Shown here: positions 7,704 through 28,305 of the stretch, one piece after another
Numbering within the stretch: position 1 is the first letter of the stretch
Layout of the letters: each line of letters begins with the position of its first letter
From: Candidatus Puniceispirillum sp.
GTDB taxonomy: Bacteria; Pseudomonadota; Alphaproteobacteria; Puniceispirillales; Puniceispirillaceae
Direction of reading: 5' to 3'
Length of the DNA: 64,000 bases
Assembly: GCA_016778895.1 (NCBI GenBank)
Contig: JADHOR010000003.1
Coordinates: 62,001-126,000, forward strand
Translations under genes and position numbers: made by a program
Notes under the pieces: generated by a model
Seen by the model: only the letters and a program-made list of their open reading frames with translations
What the model was told of the DNA's origin: nothing
Database searches by the model: none

Positions 7704-9524
7704 ATGACAACAGGGCAAAAAAGTGATCAGGGAGCAGTATTTAACCATGATCAGGCAGTAGCGCCGGCCCGCAGCTACAGCAGTCGCCAATTATTGGCGG
7801 TGTTCTGGCCCTATCTATTACCGCATCGTTTCCGAATCGCGTTGGCGATTCTGGCCTTGACGATGGTTGCTGGCGCCTTGTTGGGCATGGGGCGCGGGCT
7901 TGCTTATCTTGTTGATGAGGGTCTTGGTAAACGCGATCCGGCCTTGCTGGATCGGGCGGTCTTGGCGACGGCGATGATTGCCGTCGTGCTGGCCTTTGGG
8001 AGTTATCTTCGGACCAGCATGGTGAATAAGATTGGCGAGATGGTTTTGGCTGATATCCGCCGCGCCATCTTTGGTCATGCGATTACGCTGTCGGCGGGTT
8101 GGTTTGAAAATGCCCGAACCGGTGATTTGCTATCACGAATTACAACCGATACGAGCATTGTGCAAACAGTGATGACCTCGACGCTGTCGATGGCGGCGCG
8201 TAATTTCCTGCTGTTAATCGGCGGCTTGGTAATGGTGGTTCTGTCCAGCCCGAAAATGTCGCTTGTTGTTTTGGTGGTGGTGCCGTTGGTGGTGGTGCCC
8301 CTGATTTTCATGGGGCGACGGCTGCGCACTGCATCAAGGCTTGCACAAGACCGGCTTGCCGATGTTGGGGTTGAGGCCGAGGAAACGGTCAGCGCAATCC
8401 GTACGGTTCAGGCCTTTGGCCGCGAACAGTTCGTGAAAGGTAATTTTGAACGGGCGGTTGATCTATCACTGACGGCGGGTCTTGCCAGAGTGCGGCTTCG
8501 CGGTTTGCTGAGTGGCATTGTTATTTTCCTGGTGTTTAGCGGCATTGGCGTCATTTTGTGGATTGGCGGGCAGGATCTGATGGCTGGACGGATCAGCGCT
8601 GGTGATCTGTCTTCCTTTATTTTCTATGCTTTTCTGGTCGCAAGCTCGACCGGCTTTCTCTCCGAGCTTGCTGGTGACCTGCAGCGCGCCGCCGGAGCGG
8701 CCGAACGGATTGCCCAATTGCTGGATACCGAGGCTAGGCTGCCTGAGCCAGCGTGGCCGCAACCGATAGATCTTGCTAGGGAGACGGCGTGTGAGTTTGC
8801 GGTGGTGCATTTTGCTTATCCGGCGGCACTGAACCGGCCCGCAATCAGCGATGTTAGCTTTACCATCAAGGCGGGTGAGCGGGTCGCGATTGTCGGGCCA
8901 AGCGGGGCTGGAAAATCGACCATTTTCCATCTGCTCTTGCGGTTTTATGATCCGCTTGGCGGTGCGGTCCGGCTGGGTGGCGTTGATCTTCGTGATTTGT
9001 CGCTCGCCGATCTTCGCATGCACATCGGTTTAGTTCCGCAAGAATCGACACTTTTTTCTGCATCGATTCGTGACAATATCGCCTTTGGCCAGCCGGCTGC
9101 TGGTGATGCCGCCATTATCGCGGCGGCAAAACAGGCACAGGCGCATGATTTCATCATGACGATTGATGGCGGTTACGATGCGTTTGTTGGCGAAAAAGGT
9201 GTGCGGCTATCAGGTGGGCAGCGTCAGCGTATTGCCATTGCGCGGGCAATTTTGCGCAACCCGCGTCTGCTGCTGCTAGATGAGGCGACAAGCGCGCTTG
9301 ATGCGCAATCTGAGGCGGCGGTCCAACACGCCGTGGAAAATCTGATGACTGACCGCACGAGCTTGGTGATTGCGCACCGGCTGGCGACTGTGGTGCGCGC
9401 CGATAAGATTTTGCTGATGGATCGGGGCAGGCTGATTGCCGAGGGTAACCATGAAACGCTGATGGGTGAGTCGGCGCTCTACCGAACTCTTGCCGAATTG
9501 CAATTTTCTATTCCAAAGGTCTGA
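7704..9524 (+). CDS. ABC exporter, fused transmembrane and ATPase domains (MsbA-like)
   Basis: 606 residues in the half-transporter layout: an N-terminal domain with about six membrane helices (residues 30-330) followed by an ATPase domain. Walker A is GPSGAGKS at 398-405, the ABC signature LSGGQRQR begins at 502, and Walker B LLLLDEATSALD sits near 525. The family forms homodimers in the inner membrane that export lipids or drugs; the substrate cannot be read from sequence. The next-door rpmE is a frequent neighbour in alphaproteobacteria. GGGG about 8 bases before ATG 7704 serves as binding site. It has no partner gene downstream. Confidence 0.9.
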   Translation: MTTGQKSDQGAVFNHDQAVAPARSYSSRQLLAVFWPYLLPHRFRIALAILALTMVAGALLGMGRGLAYLVDEGLGKRDPALLDRAVLATAMIAVVLAFGSYLRTSMVNKIGEMVLADIRRAIFGHAITLSAGWFENARTGDLLSRITTDTSIVQTVMTSTLSMAARNFLLLIGGLVMVVLSSPKMSLVVLVVVPLVVVPLIFMGRRLRTASRLAQDRLADVGVEAEETVSAIRTVQAFGREQFVKGNFERAVDLSLTAGLARVRLRGLLSGIVIFLVFSGIGVILWIGGQDLMAGRISAGDLSSFIFYAFLVASSTGFLSELAGDLQRAAGAAERIAQLLDTEARLPEPAWPQPIDLARETACEFAVVHFAYPAALNRPAISDVSFTIKAGERVAIVGPSGAGKSTIFHLLLRFYDPLGGAVRLGGVDLRDLSLADLRMHIGLVPQESTLFSASIRDNIAFGQPAAGDAAIIAAAKQAQAHDFIMTIDGGYDAFVGEKGVRLSGGQRQRIAIARAILRNPRLLLLDEATSALDAQSEAAVQHAVENLMTDRTSLVIAHRLATVVRADKILLMDRGRLIAEGNHETLMGESALYRTLAELQFSIPKV

Positions 9525-10070: not shown

Positions 10071-11408
10071 TCATCTTATCGCCACACGCTGGGTGATCTT
10101 TAGCTCGATCCGGCGGTTCTTGCGGCGCGCATTGTCGCTGTCACTGATGTCAAGCGGCTGATATTCGCCGTAACCGGCAGCCGCCAGCCGGTTGGCAGGC
10201 AAACCCTGTTGATTCAGATAGCGCACCACAGATAGGGCACGTTCGGTAGATAGATCCCAGTTATCGGCATAGCGGCCAGCCCGAATTGGTACATTGTCGG
10301 TATGGCCGTCGACCTGCAGAACCCAATTGATGTCGCTTGGAATTTTCTCAGCGATATCGGCAAGGGTAATTGCCAGTTTGGCAAGCTGTTCCTGGCCTTG
10401 CGGGCCAATCTCGGCCTGACCTTGCGCGAAAAGAACTTCCGACTGGAAGACGAAGCGGTCGCCGACAATCTGCACATCATCACGGCCTTTTAGCACGTCA
10501 CGTAGCCGGCCGAAAAATTCCGAACGGAAGCGCTGTAATTCCTGAACACGGCTTGCCAGCGCATTGTTCAACGACTGACCCAGGTTGGCAATTGCTACTT
10601 TGTCACGCACTGTCTCGCGTTCCTTTTTGGCAAGTAGGCCAGTCAGCTCTTCAATGCGAAGCCTCAAAGCGGCCAAGGCTGCGGTCATTTCGTTGACTTC
10701 GGCGCGTGATGCCTCGGTTTCGGCCTTGGATGTGGTGACCTCTGCTGACAATAGGCTGATTTTATCTGTTGCACTTTGGTTCTTAGCTTGCACCACTGCA
10801 AGCTGCTCCTTAGCAAGCTGTAAGGCGCTGCTCATTTTGGCAACTTCGGTGCGTGATGCGTCGGCATCCGCCTTGGATTCGGCAACCTCTGTCGACAAAA
10901 GCTTGATTTTGTCCGTTGCAGTTTGGTTTTTGGCAATTGCCATTGCCAGCTGTGCTTCGACAAGCTGTAAGGCGCCCAGTCTTTCTTCTATAGTTGCGCG
11001 CGCCGCGGTGAGGCTAGCTTTCATATCTGTCAGTTTTGTAACCAATTCTGCTATCTCATTATTACGCGAGTTGAGTACTGCCCTAACGCTGGTTATTTCT
11101 GCCTGAAGATTGCTGCGATCGGCGTTACTATTATTTAACTGGTTGGTGATTTGCGCGAGGTTGGCGGCAAGGTCGGCGCTTGCGCGTCGTTCGATATTCA
11201 ATAATTCGCTGAGTGAAGCAAGCTGTTGGCGCATTTCGCCAAGGGTAGCATCCTGACCAGAGACGCGATAAGCTAGGTTTATTTGTATTAGCACAAACAC
11301 CATCAGTACAAAAATGATAACCATCAGCAAAGTTGCCAATGCATCAACAAACCCAGGCCAGGTAAAATTATCAACCCGACGTGCATTGCCAATCCGTGCC
11401 AGTGCCAT
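10071..11408 (-). CDS. OmpA/MotB-like protein with long periplasmic coiled coil
   Basis: 445 residues: a cytoplasmic N-terminus, one membrane helix at about 21-46 with an aspartate at its start (Asp22 in GFVDALATLL, placed like the proton-binding Asp of MotB and TolR), a coiled coil from about 55 to 290, and a C-terminal OmpA-type peptidoglycan-binding domain (about 315-440) with VDGHTDNVPI, LSTERALSVVRYL and AGYGEYQP. Residues 147-195 and 196-244 are a tandem duplication of 49 residues. The partner MotA/TolQ-like gene ends 5 bases upstream, so the pair should form a proton-driven stator-like complex anchored to the cell wall. No flagellar gene is nearby. The energised process is unknown. Confidence 0.85.
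   Translation of the reverse strand: MALARIGNARRVDNFTWPGFVDALATLLMVIIFVLMVFVLIQINLAYRVSGQDATLGEMRQQLASLSELLNIERRASADLAANLAQITNQLNNSNADRSNLQAEITSVRAVLNSRNNEIAELVTKLTDMKASLTAARATIEERLGALQLVEAQLAMAIAKNQTATDKIKLLSTEVAESKADADASRTEVAKMSSALQLAKEQLAVVQAKNQSATDKISLLSAEVTTSKAETEASRAEVNEMTAALAALRLRIEELTGLLAKKERETVRDKVAIANLGQSLNNALASRVQELQRFRSEFFGRLRDVLKGRDDVQIVGDRFVFQSEVLFAQGQAEIGPQGQEQLAKLAITLADIAEKIPSDINWVLQVDGHTDNVPIRAGRYADNWDLSTERALSVVRYLNQQGLPANRLAAAGYGEYQPLDISDSDNARRKNRRIELKITQRVAIR
10677..10970 (-). repeat. Tandem 147-bp repeat inside the OmpA/MotB-like gene
   Basis: Two units, 10824-10970 and 10677-10823, encode 49-residue copies that align without gaps (LQLVEAQLAMAIAKNQTATD and LQLAKEQLAVVQAKNQSATD at their starts). 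49 residues are exactly seven heptads, so the duplication lengthens the coiled coil without changing its register. Confidence 0.85.
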
Positions 11409-11413
11409 TACCG

Positions 11414-12469
11414 CTAGTTCCCCTTGGTGTCACGGGTTTTTATATCCATCATCGTGGCAATTGATGATGACAGGCCGCGTAATTCGCTGGCAACAATATC
11501 TGTGCGCTGGTTTCGATCGGTGCGTAAATCGTCAGATAACTGAAGGATATTGGCGTTTAATTGAGCCAGCTGGTCTCGGATCCGCCGCTCGTCAACCAGG
11601 GCTTCATGCATTTGTGCGATCGTACCATTCAAAAGTGATACCTGCTCAAGTACACGCTCGCGGTTGGTCTCGCCCTTTTCGATAGATTTTGACAATGCCA
11701 ATAGGGCGCGTGCAGCTTCTTCACTCATGCCACTTGCAAGTGGGCTTTGTCCTTTTTCTCCTGATGGGCCTCTGTCATTGAAACGAGCAAAGGCTGAAAG
11801 CCAATCCTCTAGTTCGTTAAAAAACCGGCCCATTGCCTGACCAAGCTGGAGGTCAAGAAAGCCCAGTATCAAAGAGCCAGCGAGGCCAAATAATGATGAT
11901 GAAAAAGCTGTTGCCATACCAGAAAGTGGCGCATCAAGGCCAACTCGCAATTGTTTCATCATGGCTTCAAAATTGTCAGTGTTCGTGTCAATTGATCCAA
12001 CAACATTTCCCACCGCACCGATTGTCTGGAGCAATCCCCAAAAGGTTCCAAGAAGCCCAAGAAATATAAGCAATCCGATCATATATCGTGAAATCTCACG
12101 ACCTTCATCAAGGCGGGCAGCGACGCCGTCCAGCACTGACCGCAATGACAATGCCGATAACTGTGCGTCATGGCGCGAGTCTGCCAACATTGCGTAAACC
12201 GTTGCCAAAACAACAGGCCTGTGCTCTGCTAAATCCAGTTTTCCTGTCGATTTGACCACAAGCAACCAATTACGCTCAGGCATAAGCCGTAATGTTTGCC
12301 GCACGATATACAGAACACCAATAGAAAAAGCGCCAAGGATCACTCCATTTAAGGCCGGGTTACCCATAAAGGCAGCTTTTAATGGCACTGCCAGCAAGCC
12401 AGCGATAATACCAACCGAAAGCAGGAATATGAGCATTCTTATAAGATAGCGTCTTGGGTTGGTTTCCAT
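11414..12469 (-). CDS. MotA/TolQ/ExbB-family proton channel protein
   Basis: 351 residues from ATG 12469, chosen because GAGGAG lies 8 bases upstream; the frame stays open to ATG 12592 but nothing there resembles a binding site. Two N-terminal membrane helices (about 9-30 and 38-55) are followed by a cytoplasmic region and the family's channel helices: YMIGLLIFLGLLGTFWGLLQ and GMATAFSSSLFGLAGSLILG. The C-terminal third is charged and coiled. With the OmpA/MotB-like protein encoded 5 bases downstream it should form an inner-membrane ion channel that drives a cell-wall-anchored rod. It belongs to neither the tolQ copy in this window nor an evident flagellar motor. Confidence 0.85.
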   Translation of the reverse strand: METNPRRYLIRMLIFLLSVGIIAGLLAVPLKAAFMGNPALNGVILGAFSIGVLYIVRQTLRLMPERNWLLVVKSTGKLDLAEHRPVVLATVYAMLADSRHDAQLSALSLRSVLDGVAARLDEGREISRYMIGLLIFLGLLGTFWGLLQTIGAVGNVVGSIDTNTDNFEAMMKQLRVGLDAPLSGMATAFSSSLFGLAGSLILGFLDLQLGQAMGRFFNELEDWLSAFARFNDRGPSGEKGQSPLASGMSEEAARALLALSKSIEKGETNRERVLEQVSLLNGTIAQMHEALVDERRIRDQLAQLNANILQLSDDLRTDRNQRTDIVASELRGLSSSIATMMDIKTRDTKGN

Positions 12470-12722: not shown

Positions 12723-13532
12723 CTAAGTGCGTGCTTTTGCCAGATGTTTTAACAACTCGGCATGGAGCGCCGGATTGGCAGCCACAACGTCGCCGCTTTG
12801 CAAGACCCGGTCGCGTGACGCAAAATCAGATACAAAGCCACCAGACTCGCGCACCAGCAATATGCCGGCAGCAATATCCCAGCTGCGCAGCCCATGTTCC
12901 CAAAACCCGTCAAACCGGCCTGCCGCAACATAGGCAAGATCAAGCGCTGCCGAGCCAAAGCGACGAACACCAGCGCTAACCCCCATAATGTTATATAATT
13001 CACGGGAAAATAGCGCATGATCTTCGTCGTTGCCACGGCCGATGAATGGAATGCCGGTGGAAAAGATTGAGTCTGCCATTTTACGGCGGCCGGAAACGCG
13101 CAGCCGGCGATCGTTCATATAAGCGCCTGATCCGGCTTCGGCAAAGAAATATTCATGGCGCAAAGGGTCAAAAACAAGCCCTGCGGTGATTTTTCCTTTA
13201 CAGAGAACGGCGATTGAGATGGCAAAATGCGGAATGCCGTGCAGATAATTGGTGGTACCGTCCAGCGGGTCAACGATCCAGCAAGGGGCATCAGGATCGG
13301 CGCCAGCGGTAATCCCGCTTTCTTCCATTTCAAAGCCCCAATCTGGCCGTGCCTTTTGCAGCTCTGCCTTGATAATGCGCTCGGCATTGGTGTCAACGCG
13401 TGAGACAAAATCGGCCGGACCTTTCCGGCTAACCTGCAAATTCTCGACCTCGCCAAAATCGCGGAGCATATTGCGGCTGGCGGCAGTTGCCGCCTTGTGC
13501 ATAACATTGATGAGGGCCGAACGGGTTGCCAT
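12723..13532 (-). CDS. suhB: Inositol monophosphatase family protein
   Basis: 269 residues of the Mg-dependent, Li-sensitive phosphatase family. The metal-binding motifs are all present: Glu in FEMEESG (about 72), DPLDGTTNYLHG (about 88-99), and WDIAAG with ESGG near 218-233. The substrate is probably inositol-1-phosphate or another sugar phosphate; E. coli SuhB also acts as an RNA polymerase-associated factor in rRNA transcription. The gene is 23 bases after efp in the same direction, so the two are probably cotranscribed, an arrangement seen in other alphaproteobacteria. Confidence 0.9.
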   Translation of the reverse strand: MATRSALINVMHKAATAASRNMLRDFGEVENLQVSRKGPADFVSRVDTNAERIIKAELQKARPDWGFEMEESGITAGADPDAPCWIVDPLDGTTNYLHGIPHFAISIAVLCKGKITAGLVFDPLRHEYFFAEAGSGAYMNDRRLRVSGRRKMADSIFSTGIPFIGRGNDEDHALFSRELYNIMGVSAGVRRFGSAALDLAYVAAGRFDGFWEHGLRSWDIAAGILLVRESGGFVSDFASRDRVLQSGDVVAANPALHAELLKHLAKART

Positions 13533-13555: not shown

Positions 13556-14122
13556 TTAGTTTTTCGCACGCTCTACATAGCTTGCATCTTCGGGGCGCAC
13601 AACAATGCGGGTTCCCGTTTCAATATGGGGTGGTACCATCACCCGTTCACCATTTTCTAGCACTGCAGGCTTGTAGGACGATGATGCGGTCTGTCCCTTG
13701 ACCACGGCATCAGCCTCGACAACTTCCATAATAACAGTATCTGGAAGCTCGACAGAAATCGGATCGCCTTCATGGCTGGACATGGTGACAATCATGCCAT
13801 CTTGCAAATAGGCGGCGCGATCACCAACCATATCCTTGTCGATGCTAATCTGTTCAAAGGTTTCGGAATGCATAAACACCAGATGGTTGCCTTCATCATA
13901 AAGAAAGGTGCATTCAGCCTCGTCGAGGATCACCCGCTCAACCGTTTCTGATGACCGGAACCGCTCATTGAGCTTGGTACCATCCCGGATGTCACGCAGC
14001 TCAATCTGGGCAAATGCACCACCTTTGCCGGGCTTGACATGGGCAACCTTCACTGCAGTCCACAGGCGACCATTATGTTCGATTACATTGCCGGGTTTGA
14101 CGGCGTTTCCATTTAGTTTCAT
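13556..14122 (-). CDS. efp: Elongation factor P
   Basis: 188 residues, the standard length. EF-P binds stalled ribosomes and speeds peptide-bond formation at polyproline stretches. The loop at 29-36, VKPGKGGA, has Lys33 at the position that is beta-lysylated by EpmA in enterobacteria, so a Lys-type modification pathway is expected elsewhere in the genome. The KOW, OB and C-terminal domains all appear intact. AGAAGG lies a suitable distance before ATG 14122. Proline-rich client proteins are encoded in this window (TolA). The leader contains a 9-bp tandem array. Confidence 0.96.
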   Translation of the reverse strand: MKLNGNAVKPGNVIEHNGRLWTAVKVAHVKPGKGGAFAQIELRDIRDGTKLNERFRSSETVERVILDEAECTFLYDEGNHLVFMHSETFEQISIDKDMVGDRAAYLQDGMIVTMSSHEGDPISVELPDTVIMEVVEADAVVKGQTASSSYKPAVLENGERVMVPPHIETGTRIVVRPEDASYVERAKN

Positions 14123-23813: not shown

Positions 23814-24539
23814 ATGAATTCTGTGGAAATGACGGTAACCCATTCAAGTACAGACCTCACCATTATGGGCCTGTTCTGGGCGGCGGATCCTTTTGTCAAA
23901 CTGGTTATGTTGCTGCTGGTTCTGGCATCAGTATGGTGTTGGGCCATTGTGGTTGAAAAAATCACCATCATTCGGCGCGAGCGCCGGTTGGCACAGGCTT
24001 TTGAAGATGCGTTCTGGTCCGGCGGCTCGTTAGACAAGCTCTATGATGATACCGGCGCAAACCCCCGCGATGCGATGTCAATCGTGTTTGTAGCGGCGAT
24101 GCGCGAATGGCGCCGGGCAACTGCGCGCGGGCTTGCAGACTCGGCTCGGGCTGATCTGCGGGCTTCACTGGTTAGCCGGATTGACCGCTCAATGACCTTT
24201 ACCATCACCCGCGAGATGGAACGGATGGAACGGGGGATGAATTTTCTTGCCTCAATCGGCTCGGTATCACCCTTTGTTGGGTTGCTCGGGACAGTCTGGG
24301 GGATCATGAGTTCGTTCCAGTCAATTGCCGAGTCCAAAAATACCAGCCTTGCCGTTGTTGCGCCGGGCATTGCCGAGGCGTTATTCGCTACGGCGCTGGG
24401 TCTGGCGGCGGCAATTCCGGCGGTGATTGCCTATAATAAATTTGCCGGCGATCTGGAACGGTTCGGTGCGAGGCTGGAAACATTCGCGCAGGAATTCAGC
24501 ACGCTGTTGGCGCGCCAGCTTGATGAAGGCGGTAAATAA
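23814..24539 (+). CDS. tolQ: Tol-Pal system proton channel TolQ
   Basis: 241 residues with three membrane helices: about 19-50 (FVKLVMLLLVLASVWCWAIV), about 140-165 (the SVSPFVGLLGTVWGIMSSF block) and about 180-205 (GIAEALFATALGLAAAIPAV). TolQ and TolR form the proton-driven stator that energises TolA during outer-membrane constriction. Its stop and the tolR start share bases (TAATG at 24539). Confidence 0.96.
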   Translation: MNSVEMTVTHSSTDLTIMGLFWAADPFVKLVMLLLVLASVWCWAIVVEKITIIRRERRLAQAFEDAFWSGGSLDKLYDDTGANPRDAMSIVFVAAMREWRRATARGLADSARADLRASLVSRIDRSMTFTITREMERMERGMNFLASIGSVSPFVGLLGTVWGIMSSFQSIAESKNTSLAVVAPGIAEALFATALGLAAAIPAVIAYNKFAGDLERFGARLETFAQEFSTLLARQLDEGGK

Positions 24540-24967
24540 TGGGTGCGGGAATTAAACGTTCGACCAGTGGCAGACGGCACCGCCCAATGGGCGAGATTAA
24601 CGTCACCCCGTTTGTCGATGTGATGCTGGTGCTATTAATCGTGTTTATGGTGACGGCACCACTTTTAACCGTTGGGGTTGAGGTTGATTTGCCAAAAACC
24701 AAAGCTGGAGCGATCAATGCCGACGCAGCACCTTTGGTGGTTTCGATAAAATCTGACGGCAGACTCTATTTGCAGGAAACCGCGGTTGAGGCTGAGGTGT
24801 TGATCCCGCGCCTAAAGGCAATATCCAACGCCAATCCCGATGTCCGTATTTTTGTTCGCGGCGACAGGGCGGTGACTTATGGCGAGGTGCTTGGCGTTAT
24901 GGGGCGGATACAGGCGGCCGGATTTGAAAAGGTTGCCTTGGTGGCCAAGCTTCCCGAAGCAAAATAA
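24539..24967 (+). CDS. tolR: Tol-Pal system protein TolR
   Basis: 142 residues: a basic N-terminus, one membrane helix with the essential Asp27 (INVTPFVDVMLVLLIVF) and a periplasmic domain that binds peptidoglycan when activated. The helix matches the ExbD/TolR family exactly. It overlaps tolQ by one base and precedes tolA by 36 bases. Confidence 0.96.
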   Translation: MGAGIKRSTSGRRHRPMGEINVTPFVDVMLVLLIVFMVTAPLLTVGVEVDLPKTKAGAINADAAPLVVSIKSDGRLYLQETAVEAEVLIPRLKAISNANPDVRIFVRGDRAVTYGEVLGVMGRIQAAGFEKVALVAKLPEAK

Positions 24968-25003
24968 TGGCTTGCTGATGCAGATGCGCGTGGAACGCTA
25001 GAA

Positions 25004-25984
25004 ATGGATCGTCGTTCGCTGTTGATTTCGGTTGGGCTGCATGCCGGTGTTGTGGTGCTGGCGTGGATTGGCCTTCCGTCAATCAAGCGTGATCTGCCCG
25101 ATCAGCAGCCCTTGGTCGTGATGGAAATGGTGCAATCCGTGCCAACGACAAATCTGGATCAGGGCGAAAAGCCAAGTACAGCAAAACAGGAACAAAAAGC
25201 AGCTGCACCCAAAAAGCCACCACCGCCACCGCCGCCGGCCCCGCCGCGCGCCAAGCCGCCAGCACCCCCAAAGCTAGTGCCACCAAAGCCAGTGCCAAAG
25301 GCACCTGATCTGAAAGCTGAGACCCTGCCGCAAAAAGTCGCGCCAAAGCCAAAGCCAAAGCCGGAAATTAAACAACCGCCAGACCCGCCAAAATCCAAGC
25401 CAAAGCAGGTGGCGGCACAACAGGCGCCGGTTCCAGTGCCTCAATCACCGCCGACACGCATCAATAAGCTGGCACGCAAAAAGGCTTTAGACAAAGAGCG
25501 TCAGGATGCGTTAAGTGGGGTGATGCAAAATCTTGCCAAGGCAAGGGCTGTCGCTGAAGAGGCTGAAAAGAAGCGGCGTCAGCAAGAGCGTAAAGATGCG
25601 GCCGAGAAATTAACCTCGAGCCTGACATCGGCGGCTGGCAGTGCGATCCGCGCACCTGCAAAGCAGGCGGTTGGACCGCTTGGCCTGTCTGATATTGATC
25701 GGATCCGCCAGCATGTGTCATCATGCTGGTCGCCGCCAATTGGTACAGCAGGGGCAAACATGCTAAATGTTGACATAATTGTCACGTTAGATAGAGGTGG
25801 AATGGTTTTGACCGCCGAGGTGGACAATAAAATGCGGCTTGCCGTCGACCGGACATTCCGGGTTGCGGCGGACGAGGCCATTCGCACAATGTTTAAATGT
25901 TCGCCGCTACCAGTGCCATTAGACAAGTACGAACAATGGAAAAGCTTTATTTTCGGGTTCGATCCAAAATTCCTGACCCGGTAA
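25004..25984 (+). CDS. tolA: Tol-Pal system protein TolA
   Basis: 326 residues: membrane helix at the N-terminus (about 5-25), a proline/lysine-rich spacer (about 55-155, including the run [19 protein letters not shown]), a charged helical stretch (about 160-210) and a C-terminal TonB-like domain (about 225-326). The long polyproline spacer replaces the Ala/Lys/Glu helix of E. coli TolA, as in other alphaproteobacteria, and makes this protein a likely EF-P client. It links the TolQR motor to TolB and Pal across the periplasm. Confidence 0.92.
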
Positions 25985-26045
25985 CGATAAAAACAGAAAT
26001 CGCGACATCATGATACTTGAAGACGAAAAAATAAATGGGGTTAGG

Positions 26046-27380
26046 ATGAAAATGATGAGGTTTTTTCGACTGATAGCTCTGTTGTTAACTTGTTTGGGCC
26101 TGTTCAGTAATCTTGCCCATGCGCAGCTTCGCATTGATATTACTGAAGGTCAGGTAGTGCCAACGCCGATTGCGATTGCTAATTTTACCGGTCCGGACGG
26201 CAAGGTCACCGAAATTGGAAAGCAGATTGCGCAGATTATCTCAGAAGATCTGGCGAGCTCCGGCCTGTTTGCACCGGTTGATAGCGCCGCCTTTGTCGAG
26301 CCTCCAAAAGCACCGTCGATCCGGCCTAATTTCAATAATTGGACCCCATTGGGCGTCAAGGGCCTGCTTGTTGGGTCGGCCTATATTGACGGTTCGGGGA
26401 TGTTGCAGGTTGAATTTGTCCTGTGGGACGTGGTGATTCAGCGTAATATCACCGGCGGTGGCGGCAATGCCGATCAGACAGCGATCCGGCGCATCTCGCA
26501 TCAGATTGCCGATTTTGTCTATGAAGAATTTACCGGCGATACCGGTTATTTTGACACACGCGTTGTTTATGTCGCTGAATCGGGCTCGCAAAGCCGCCGT
26601 CTGAAACGGTTGGCAATCATGGATCAGGATGGACATAATCATCAATATCTGACCACTGGTGCCGATTTGGTTCTCACCCCGCGCTTTTCGCCAACAGCGA
26701 ATGAGATTGCGTATCTAAACTATTTCAACGATGAGCCAAATGTTTATCTGTTCGAGATTGCTACCGGACGAACCGAACGGCTCGGGTCGTTTCCGGGCAT
26801 GACCTTCGCGCCACGTTTTGCCCCGTCCGGCGATAAGCTGATCATGAGCCTTGCGCAAAATGGCATGACCGACATTTACGAAATGGATATGCGTACGCAG
26901 GCGATCAACCGCCTGACCCAGTCAGCCTCGATTGATACATCGCCATCCTATTCACCAGATGGCAAGCAGATTGTCTTTAACTCGGACCGTGGCGGTAGCC
27001 AGCAGCTATATGTTATGAACGCCGACGGGTCTAATGTGCGGCGAATCAGCTTCAATCAGGGGCGTTACGCAACGCCGGTCTGGTCGCCGCGTGGTGATAT
27101 CATCGCCTTTACCAAAATGGCCAACGGCCAGTTTTATATTGGGGTGATGAATGTTGATGGCAGCGGTGAGCGGCTGCTTGCCAGCGGGTTTCTTGTTGAA
27201 GGACCGACATGGGCACCAAATGGCCGCGTGTTAATGTATTTTAAACAGAAGCCTTTTGAAACTGATGGCAGCGGTGGTGATACTCATGTTTACCGAATCG
27301 ATATTACCGGTTTCAACGAAAAACGGATTATTACGCCGTCGGATGCGTCTGATCCGGCATGGTCACCCGTATTGCGCTAA
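26046..27380 (+). CDS. tolB: Tol-Pal system protein TolB
   Basis: 444 residues from ATG 26046, which gives a normal signal peptide ([18 protein letters not shown], cleavage after ...LAHA) and has GGGGTTAGG upstream; the frame opens 12 codons earlier. The mature periplasmic protein has the N-terminal TolB domain (about 30-165) and a six-bladed beta-propeller built from repeats such as [19 protein letters not shown]. TolB binds Pal and the TolA C-terminus. Unlike in many genomes, 376 bases separate it from pal. Confidence 0.95.
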
Positions 27381-27756
27381 ATACTGTCGCATGTTAATGG
27401 CCGCAGCGCCATTGGCCGAGACGCATGGATCACCGGCAGATCCGGGGTTTTCATACGCCCAAGTCAGAAAACACCATGCGGGCGCGCCTGACAGGTGACT
27501 AATGGCTTTATTGGGCATTAGCGAGAGGGGATTGAAGTTAGCCCTGCTAAAAAATTCTTTTTTCAGTGCTTGTAGACGAACTTTTGGGTTTCATTTCTTT
27601 GGGTTTTGGGCTATGCAGGAATTATATTTCAGACCAGTTTTGGCTGGTCGATGGGTGTGTCTGCGACATAATGATGATGCGTTGTGTATTTGGTCACCTG
27701 ATTACGTGGAAGAAAAACCATCCGGTATGCCGGACAACCAAATAAGGAGCATATAG
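27381..27756 (+). other. tolB-pal intergenic region, no gene recognised
   Basis: 376 bases. Two small hairpins are visible: GACCAG/CTGGTC at 27632-27649 and TCCGG/CCGGA at about 27720-27733. An 84-codon frame (27502-27756) ends exactly at the pal start but has an implausible composition and is not called. The last part contains AAGGAG, the pal binding site. A separate promoter for pal is likely somewhere here. Confidence 0.5.
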
Positions 27757-28305
27757 ATGTTTCAACGACTCCTCGCTCTTTTCGCGGTAGCTTTTCTCTT
27801 TGCTGCTTGTGAAACAGCATCCAACGTCTCGGGAGATAGTGCTTCCGGTAGCTCCTCAGGCAGTGCAACAGGCAGCGCAACAGGCAGTGCAACAAGCAGC
27901 TCAACAGCTAGTACCGCATCGTCGACCAGCGGTTCAACTGTCGCAACCCAAATGAGTGACGCTGAAAAGCTGGCGCAAGTGGGTAACACTGTTTACTTTG
28001 GTTTTGATAGTTCTGAGCTTGATGGTGAAGCGCAGGCCACACTCGACCGCCAAGCCGCATTTCTAAATGTAAACCCGACAGTGGTGGTGATCATCGAAGG
28101 GCACGCTGATGAGCGCGGAACGCGTGAATACAACCTTGCGCTTGGGGACCGTCGTGCAGTTTCTGTGCGGGATTATCTGCTGGCAAAAGGTTTGGATGCG
28201 GCGCGCATCCGCACCGTTTCTTACGGCAAAGAGCGCCCGTCAGTTGCGGGCTCTAACGAAGAAGTCTGGGCAAAAAATCGCCGCGCTGCAACGGTTCTTA
28301 ACTAA
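27757..28305 (+). CDS. pal: Peptidoglycan-associated lipoprotein Pal
   Basis: 182 residues. The signal peptide ends at Cys18 in LFAAC, an acceptable lipobox, so the protein is lipidated and goes to the outer membrane. A flexible Gly/Ser/Ala/Thr linker (about 22-62) contains a 12-bp tandem repeat. The C-terminal OmpA-like domain has VYFGFDSSELDGEA, EGHADERGTREYNLALGDRR and the AKNRRA end, which bind diaminopimelate in peptidoglycan. AAGGAG is 8 bases before ATG 27757, and a strong terminator follows at 28326. Confidence 0.95.
   Translation: MFQRLLALFAVAFLFAACETASNVSGDSASGSSSGSATGSATGSATSSSTASTASSTSGSTVATQMSDAEKLAQVGNTVYFGFDSSELDGEAQATLDRQAAFLNVNPTVVVIIEGHADERGTREYNLALGDRRAVSVRDYLLAKGLDAARIRTVSYGKERPSVAGSNEEVWAKNRRAATVLN
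27859..27906 (+). repeat. Four 12-bp units in the Pal linker
   Basis: GGCAGYGCAACA occurs at 27859, 27871 and 27883, with a diverged copy at 27895, encoding Gly-Ser-Ala-Thr repeats. Such an array can change linker length by slippage without breaking the frame. Confidence 0.8.

Follow-up and report, generated by a model that had tools for sequence, protein, structure and literature searches.

What does an ion-channel protein encoded beside a wall-binding rod protein drive, when no flagellar or defence gene is evident around the pair? This question is raised by two adjoining genes, here called A and B, in a stretch of 64,000 nucleotides (hereafter the window) of contig JADHOR010000003.1 from the alphaproteobacterium Candidatus Puniceispirillum sp. 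An initial annotation had described them as an orphan MotA/MotB-like stator pair that energises something in the envelope other than what the window's own TolQR serves. We found that A-B is a widely conserved and already named stator-like family of mixed architecture, with a rod length that follows a register rule. The family name NF006543 and the overexpression phenotype in Komagataeibacter hansenii were known; the rod register rule, a heptad register that ties the channel to the wall anchor, is new here, and neither this rule nor a third gene, C, figured in the initial annotation. The rule suggests an ion-driven machine acting on the envelope and not on swimming. To the whole reading, a 5:2-type ion motor outside the flagellar, Tol, Ton and Zor systems that would act on the envelope through a wall-anchored coiled-coil axle, we give a probability of about 0.55.

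The rod was measured in each B protein as the span from the membrane aspartate to the GDRF-type motif with which the OmpA domain opens. Both anchors were recognised in 134 of 154 B proteins, 131 of them distinct, after dropping three identical copies and the 20 proteins without a recognised anchor, two of which (from loci L096 and L099) seem to be without the membrane helix. Although the spans range from 158 to 742 residues, their remainder on division by seven is 0 in 95, 4 in 22, 3 in nine and another value in five proteins, that is, one of the classes 0, 3 and 4 in 126 of the 131. Among the 56 distinct spans modulus 7 departs from an even distribution at p = 4e-20, and of the moduli 3 to 15 only 14 also does. 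Since relatives share lengths, we further compared pairs joined by separate paths in a tree from which the rod had been excluded: among 47 such pairs with unequal spans, the difference is a whole number of heptads in 28 (p = 9e-13 against 1/7), 3 or 4 modulo 7 in 16 and another value in three. From 24 loci fetched later we obtained 22 B proteins, four of them without the anchors; 14 of the remaining 18 hold whole heptads and 17 fall in the three classes, although five of the 14 are close relatives sharing one span and some genomes may overlap earlier ones. The same test gave no departure for the linker of protein C (28 distinct values, p = 0.54) and none for the C-terminal tail of A (54 values to the stop codon, p = 0.98; 24 to its end motif, p = 0.83).

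The hydrophobic core of B stays in phase with the membrane aspartate until some 35 residues short of the OmpA motif. In the 95 whole-heptad proteins, from 35 residues after the aspartate to 35 before the motif, the residues L, I, V, M and F make up 55% of positions at phase 2 and 68% at phase 6, and 8-13% at the other five phases. Taken block by block, their share at phases 2 and 6 is 47-77% and 52-78% from 35 to 174 residues after the aspartate (1-21% elsewhere), and 37-62% and 65-79% from 35 to 209 residues before the motif (3-21% elsewhere); in the first 35 residues after the aspartate, which form the membrane helix, every phase is hydrophobic. Rods of the classes 3 and 4 show the same phase near both ends and a slip in between, and proline is absent from 127 of the 131 rods. 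Counted from 30 residues after the aspartate to 45 before the motif, rod length runs from 83 to 667 residues with a median of 177, which at the coiled-coil rise of 0.1485 nm per residue corresponds to 12, 99 and 26 nm, respectively. An ordinary periplasm is about 20-30 nm wide, so the longer rods would have to bend or lie along the wall. In Escherichia coli MotB, according to the consulted part of PMC10659934, the modelled core comprises A31, M34, M38, F41 and W45 with D32 as the ion site; these are phases 6 and 2 from the ion-site aspartate, the same register as in the B rod.

The window pair (Table 1) has the two marks of a 5:2 ion-driven rotary motor, a channel subunit of the superfamily and a partner with a membrane aspartate (D22), as the initial annotation had recognised. 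A matches PF01618 with 29 bits (cut-off 22.9); B reaches 393.8 bits against NF006543, above the curated cut-off of 305, and 65.2 bits against PF00691 over residues 326-432. W17, P18, V21 and D22 are invariant in a 43-row alignment of B, and D371 and R390 are present in all 43 proteins. The AlphaFold model of B (mean predicted local distance difference test score, pLDDT, 80.1) places helices at 21-240 and 259-306 before the OmpA fold, in agreement with the long helical rod that had been proposed, and the two tandem units within the rod, of seven heptads each, are identical in 26 of 49 residues (53%) and 98 of 147 bases. In the model of A, at a mean pLDDT of 85.6, four membrane helices occupy residues 5-25, 38-75, 106-159 and 167-232, and a single separate short helix (89-98) lies in the loop between transmembrane helices 2 and 3 (TM2-TM3). 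The search patterns GLLGTFWG and [TI]AFS[SA]SL[FL]GL were taken from its core, and a KLLARTI-like motif ends the tail in 101 of 151 distinct A proteins. The closest named relatives, with A 57-71% identical, are SAR116 and other uncultured alphaproteobacteria. A search of solved structures with the A sequence alone returned nothing meaningful (best E 0.38); by fold, the best Foldseek matches of the A model are ExbB chains (E 1.9e-4).

Table 1. Coordinates of the A-B pair, its parts and its conserved neighbours, counted from the first letter of the window
Feature	Position	Strand	Basis or remark
A, MotA/TolQ/ExbB-type channel subunit, 351 aa	11414..12469	minus	ATG at 12469; PF01618
A, TM3-TM4 core, residues about 127-207, most conserved stretches	11849..12091	minus	columns invariant across sets of 44 and 55 A proteins
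A, helical tail at the C-terminus, residues 249-349, presumed cytoplasmic	11423..11725	minus	one 101-residue helix in model
B, TM helix, coiled-coil rod and OmpA-type peptidoglycan-binding domain, 445 aa	10071..11408	minus	NF006543
B, membrane helix, residues about 20-42, Asp22 as candidate ion site	11283..11351	minus	D22 invariant
B, rod, residues about 46-306	10491..11273	minus	Asp22 to Gly316 = 294 residues = 42 heptads
B, tandem duplication in rod, two 49-residue units, residues 136-184 and 185-233	10710..11003	minus	
B, OmpA-type domain with Asp371 and Arg390	10089..10475	minus	PF00691
suhB-type inositol monophosphatase, conserved upstream neighbour	12723..13532	minus	PF00459
efp (elongation factor P), conserved upstream neighbour	13556..14122	minus	three EF-P domains
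ABC exporter, convergent downstream neighbour of A-B	7704..9524	plus	PF00664 and PF00005

A and B are separated by 5 bp on one strand, and the operon arrangement ascribed to them recurs among relatives well above chance. In the first 30 loci fetched, which held the best NF006543 matches, A stands directly before B in every one. The whole locus sample comprised 80 loci (78 genomes, chosen from NF006543 matches) and the window; 75 of these 81 hold both genes, in 74 of them with A upstream of B on the same strand at a gap of at most 100 bp, and six hold B without A. Upstream of the pair in the 75 loci we found suhB in 65, efp in 62 and C in 56 (seven loci end within 4 kb upstream of A), and a convergent ABC exporter lies within 5 kb downstream in 41. 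The typical order is efp-suhB-[C]-A-B followed by the exporter; the suhB and efp neighbours had been named correctly, and further neighbours in the window are gap, tkt (upstream) and a pyruvate phosphate dikinase gene. A Sinorhizobium meliloti record (UIJ94490, UIJ94491) keeps inositol monophosphatase, A, B and the convergent ABC gene in the same order, with A annotated as 'MotA/TolQ/ExbB proton channel family protein' and B as 'peptidoglycan -binding protein'; the pair is also present in Azospirillum brasilense. The family of this pair is NF006543/PRK09039, likewise 'peptidoglycan -binding protein', with its channel partner, names that state no function.

Among 289 sampled genomes of the class the A profile has a match in 189. 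In a separate set of 180 genomes from one family it matches 155; this family is presumed to be Acetobacteraceae, since one of its members and the Acidisoma silvae genome share their hit coordinates. The NF006543 model matches in 276 of the 289, above its cut-off in 168, and many of the weak matches are presumably other OmpA proteins. The word orphan therefore does not hold for a pair with this distribution, a conserved locus, a B protein above the NF006543 cut-off and a very probable counterpart in K. hansenii. In the source genome, 99.6% complete with 2.17 Mb in 61 contigs, PF01618 is matched by two proteins, TolQ and A, and there are three OmpA matches. A phage origin of the pair was rejected: A has no PHROG match at E 0.01, and the PHROG matches of B are only OmpA-type or coil families.

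Several loci deserve mention in their own right. L096:7001-8350 (minus) and L099:6590-8020 (plus), from two genomes of one family (G131, G233), encode second B-like proteins without an adjoining A, in which a signal-peptide-like start replaces the membrane helix, perhaps secreted rods with an OmpA domain. A-B pairs also occur on contigs titled as Desulfobacula, Gammaproteobacteria, Rhodanobacteraceae and Betaproteobacteria metagenome-assembled genomes (L157, L158, L190, L193, L194); L158, where the order efp-suhB-C-A-B is intact, may be a misnamed bin, and L157, L190 and L194 are without the usual neighbours and may be transfers. The 3.7 Mb S. meliloti sequence CP090106.1 (L256), titled plasmid pSymB, carries purE and the genes of ribosomal proteins L31 and L36 and looks like a wrongly labelled chromosome.

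Gene C, between suhB and A, encodes a protein that combines an apparent signal peptide (judged by eye) with a proline-rich linker and an OmpA domain of divergent type; none of five C proteins scanned against NCBIfam reaches a cut-off. The arginine aligned to Arg390 of B is kept in all 42 C proteins, and at the position of Asp371 36 of them have Ser, Ala, Gly or Glu. At this locus no C was detected in the window or its two family members, the best own-genome match to the C profile being 9.8e-10. As an obligatory partner of the pair C was rejected, since it went undetected in 19 of the 75 A-B loci, among them the window (some of the 19 stop close to A), and since 20 C loci from genomes picked as A-less show neither A nor B; 19 of those 20 genomes have no A match in the 289-genome search and one (G050) has a match elsewhere. 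In 18 of these 20 loci (L196-L215, e.g. L196:6995-8119, minus) suhB is kept next to C. Since C persists there in lineages without an A match, it probably has a function of its own.

Within open-licence full text of PubMed Central, the only experimental work that could be matched to the family is a pair of papers of 2018-2019 on K. hansenii ATCC 23769 (PMC6570709, PMC6315621), and other work in print is possible. According to their consulted parts, this strain has no flagella and carries neighbouring motA (348 aa) and motB (321 aa) genes, the former product with four TM helices and the latter of OmpA type. Single overexpression gave cells of up to 6.1 µm (motA) and 5.1 µm (motB) against 3.2 µm, mostly in chains, and colonies that spread three times as wide, with a looser network of cellulose; overexpressed together, the two genes raised mean length to about 3.9 against 1.8 µm, and green fluorescent protein fusions of both were polar (PMC6570709, PMC6315621). 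The authors discuss a role in outer-membrane invagination (PMC6315621) and treat the pair as MotA/MotB with an unknown target, and the consulted parts mention neither the conserved place nor the rod rule. By comparison of genomes, these genes very probably belong to the A-B family: genome G361 (presumed Acetobacteraceae) has A and B of exactly the published lengths (348 and 321 aa), arranged as efp-suhB-C-A-B, together with two BcsB genes and without fliF. The congener G430 has the same lengths, B from an alternative start, with two BcsB and no fliF, and in another genus lengths of 348 and 320 aa occur both without fliF (G423) and with it (G349).

Could the pair be a flagellar stator that was displaced or survives as a relict, retained for some residual motility? 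The membrane aspartate and OmpA-type domain of B resemble those of MotB, A is of the same channel superfamily and relatives are annotated MotA/MotB, yet we consider this highly improbable. In our tree 13 flagellar MotA rows form a branch of their own (100/99) with A outside. A profile search of the source genome for fliF gave no match, and across the 289 genomes strong A and strong fliF matches occur together in 104, A only in 80, fliF only in 54 and neither in 51 (five weak A and nine weak fliF matches being left out as not strong), so that 80 of 184 genomes with strong A are without strong fliF and the two are independent (Fisher p = 0.46, uncorrected for kinship). Moreover, a torque interface of flagellar type has four or more helices in the cytoplasmic domain, according to the consulted part of PMC12505986, and in the predicted A model the TM2-TM3 loop, with its one separate short helix, is too small for such an interface. 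On the own branch of MotA, this small loop and the independence from fliF the flagellar stator was rejected. Easier to entertain is that the pair energises outer-membrane constriction as a second system of Tol type, in part redundant with TolQR and with rod and C in place of TolA and Pal: the A core is nearest in fold to TolQ (Z 12.7, 193 residues, 3.5 Å) and ExbB (12.6), ahead of ZorA (10.7) and MotA (10.5), the apparently secreted C stands directly upstream in most A-B loci, and an invagination role is discussed for K. hansenii. We nevertheless regard it as unlikely. Three TolQ/ExbB rows form a separate branch (100/100) without A, which carries one more TM helix at its start as well as a tail and matches neither TIGR02796 nor TIGR02797; B has a rod and an OmpA domain (PF00691) and no PF02472 match, whereas the TolR of the window matches PF02472. 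The source genome has TolQ, TolR, TolB and Pal, encoded in the window at 23814-28305 about 11 kb from A-B (of these, TolQR had been noted before), yet C is undetected at its locus, and C is kept without A-B elsewhere. In the TolA position between tolR and tolB (25004-25984, plus) lies an open reading frame without a Pfam match at E 1e-5. The proposal that A is an S. meliloti Rgs protein interacting with Tol-Pal was dropped, as MotA, MotB and OmpA do not occur in the consulted part of PMC7327166.

Somewhat less improbable, although still unlikely in our view, is a mechanosensor, in which the wall-anchored rod would report strain or wall damage to the cytoplasmic tail of A and ion flow would only gate the signal. 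Sensing of this sort has been proposed for Zorya. In favour of this reading, A has a long C-terminal helix and ZorA1 as its best PADLOC match (45.9 bits), B has an OmpA-type domain, the rods are long and variable (about 12-99 nm), and A and ZorA may form one clade, a grouping that the approximately unbiased (AU) test did not reject (p = 0.55). Against this stand the short tail of some A proteins, the altered cell length reported on overexpression in K. hansenii and the want of any evident effector gene beside A-B. Zorya effectors are encoded by zorC/zorD or zorE, and a PADLOC scan of the ten window neighbours found no effector at E 1e-10, its sole match past that threshold being the ATPase part of the ABC exporter; among relatives no effector is found in the recurrent neighbours listed, the PADLOC scan covering the window neighbours. 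A lies far below the NCBIfam ZorA cut-offs, with 21 bits against 100 (NF033915) and 17.4 against 500 (NF033917). With these cut-offs missed and no defence gene evident among the ten neighbours, as the initial annotation had stated, a defence system was rejected. ZorA-ZorB-like pairs exist separately in the class (L264:699-3965, plus; L260:2658-5287, minus), and in the ZorB-like protein of L264 the C-terminal part is preceded by a coil of about 100 residues. The phylogenetic check proposed for the pair thus had a mixed outcome: A lies outside the branches of both MotA and TolQ/ExbB, so that the claim of neither a flagellar stator nor a TolQR/ExbBD system held, and grouping with ZorA is not rejected.

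Our preferred reading remains the envelope-acting motor with a wall-anchored axle. Of its elements, our data show the gene pair, its conserved place, its independence from flagella, the superfamily and fold of the channel core, the conserved aspartate and the heptad rule with its phase. The anatomy of A-B fits the envelope work that had been suggested for it; a 5:2 stoichiometry, proton use, rotation and a role at poles or division sites are our inferences. Five A would surround two B, and protons passing Asp22 of B would make the A ring rotate against the B dimer; the two B chains would run on from the channel as one parallel coiled coil across the periplasm, and their OmpA-type domains would grip peptidoglycan, so that the rod would serve as the anchoring axle. 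The length of this axle may evolve only by steps preserving helical phase. Poles or division sites would be where the motor acts on the envelope; in many species it would stand next to the apparently secreted Pro-rich OmpA-like C, encoded just upstream, without depending on it. More tentatively, and with greater doubt than for the motor itself, the family may be a natural series of axles for a rotary motor, with lengths between about 12 and about 99 nm, which arose via whole-heptad insertions and duplications and stayed in register with the channel aspartate. If this is true, one coil would carry the torque or tension of a 5:2 motor tens of nanometres across or along the wall, unlike in MotAB, Tol or Ton.

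Several observations weigh against the motor. Any continuous coiled coil is expected to change by whole heptads, which is no proof of a motor; 31 of the 131 rods contain a half-heptad shift and five fit no class, the register fades or changes its pattern over the final 35 residues ahead of the OmpA motif, and the AlphaFold monomer of B breaks at 241-258, with low confidence around 236-273. The tail of A is short in some members (e.g. 246-312 aa for A in L058, L105, L046 and L040). Fold scores near Z 10-13 can be reached by unrelated helical proteins, and a designed HR1 mimic, at 10.8, outscored both ZorA and MotA, so those two scores alone prove little. In the tree as found the A rows do not form one clade (23% of bootstrap trees); holding them as one gave a better score and was not rejected (AU p = 0.63), A with TolQ/ExbB makes up one side of a branch (96/89), and the deep placement of A is ambiguous. 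Of three outlying rows, which the second tree left out along with A_L262 and roughly half of the A rows, one (Oth_L266) fell inside A on a very long branch in the first tree. The link to K. hansenii is drawn from lengths and genome features and not from a named sequence, and overexpression is weak evidence of function that would point to poles and cell separation. Furthermore, the consulted parts of PMC6570709 and PMC6315621 report that transcripts of the chaperones groES, groEL and dnaJ also rose in K. hansenii, which may reflect stress, and that E. coli cells were unchanged on overexpression.

About two thirds of the sampled species of the class (189 of 289) carry A, many of them without a flagellum. 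A published division of stators, as given in the consulted part of PMC12505986, separates flagellar units, with a large cytoplasmic domain and an OmpA-type B, from generic ones, with a small domain and a B without OmpA homology; A-B cuts across this division by pairing a small-domain A with an OmpA-type B. In the consulted part of a review it is speculated that the torque of such motors is limited by the coiled coil that anchors them (PMC9389320), and with a rod of varied length and fixed register this idea becomes testable. The A-B family may also account for the changes of cell length and cellulose network in engineered Komagataeibacter.

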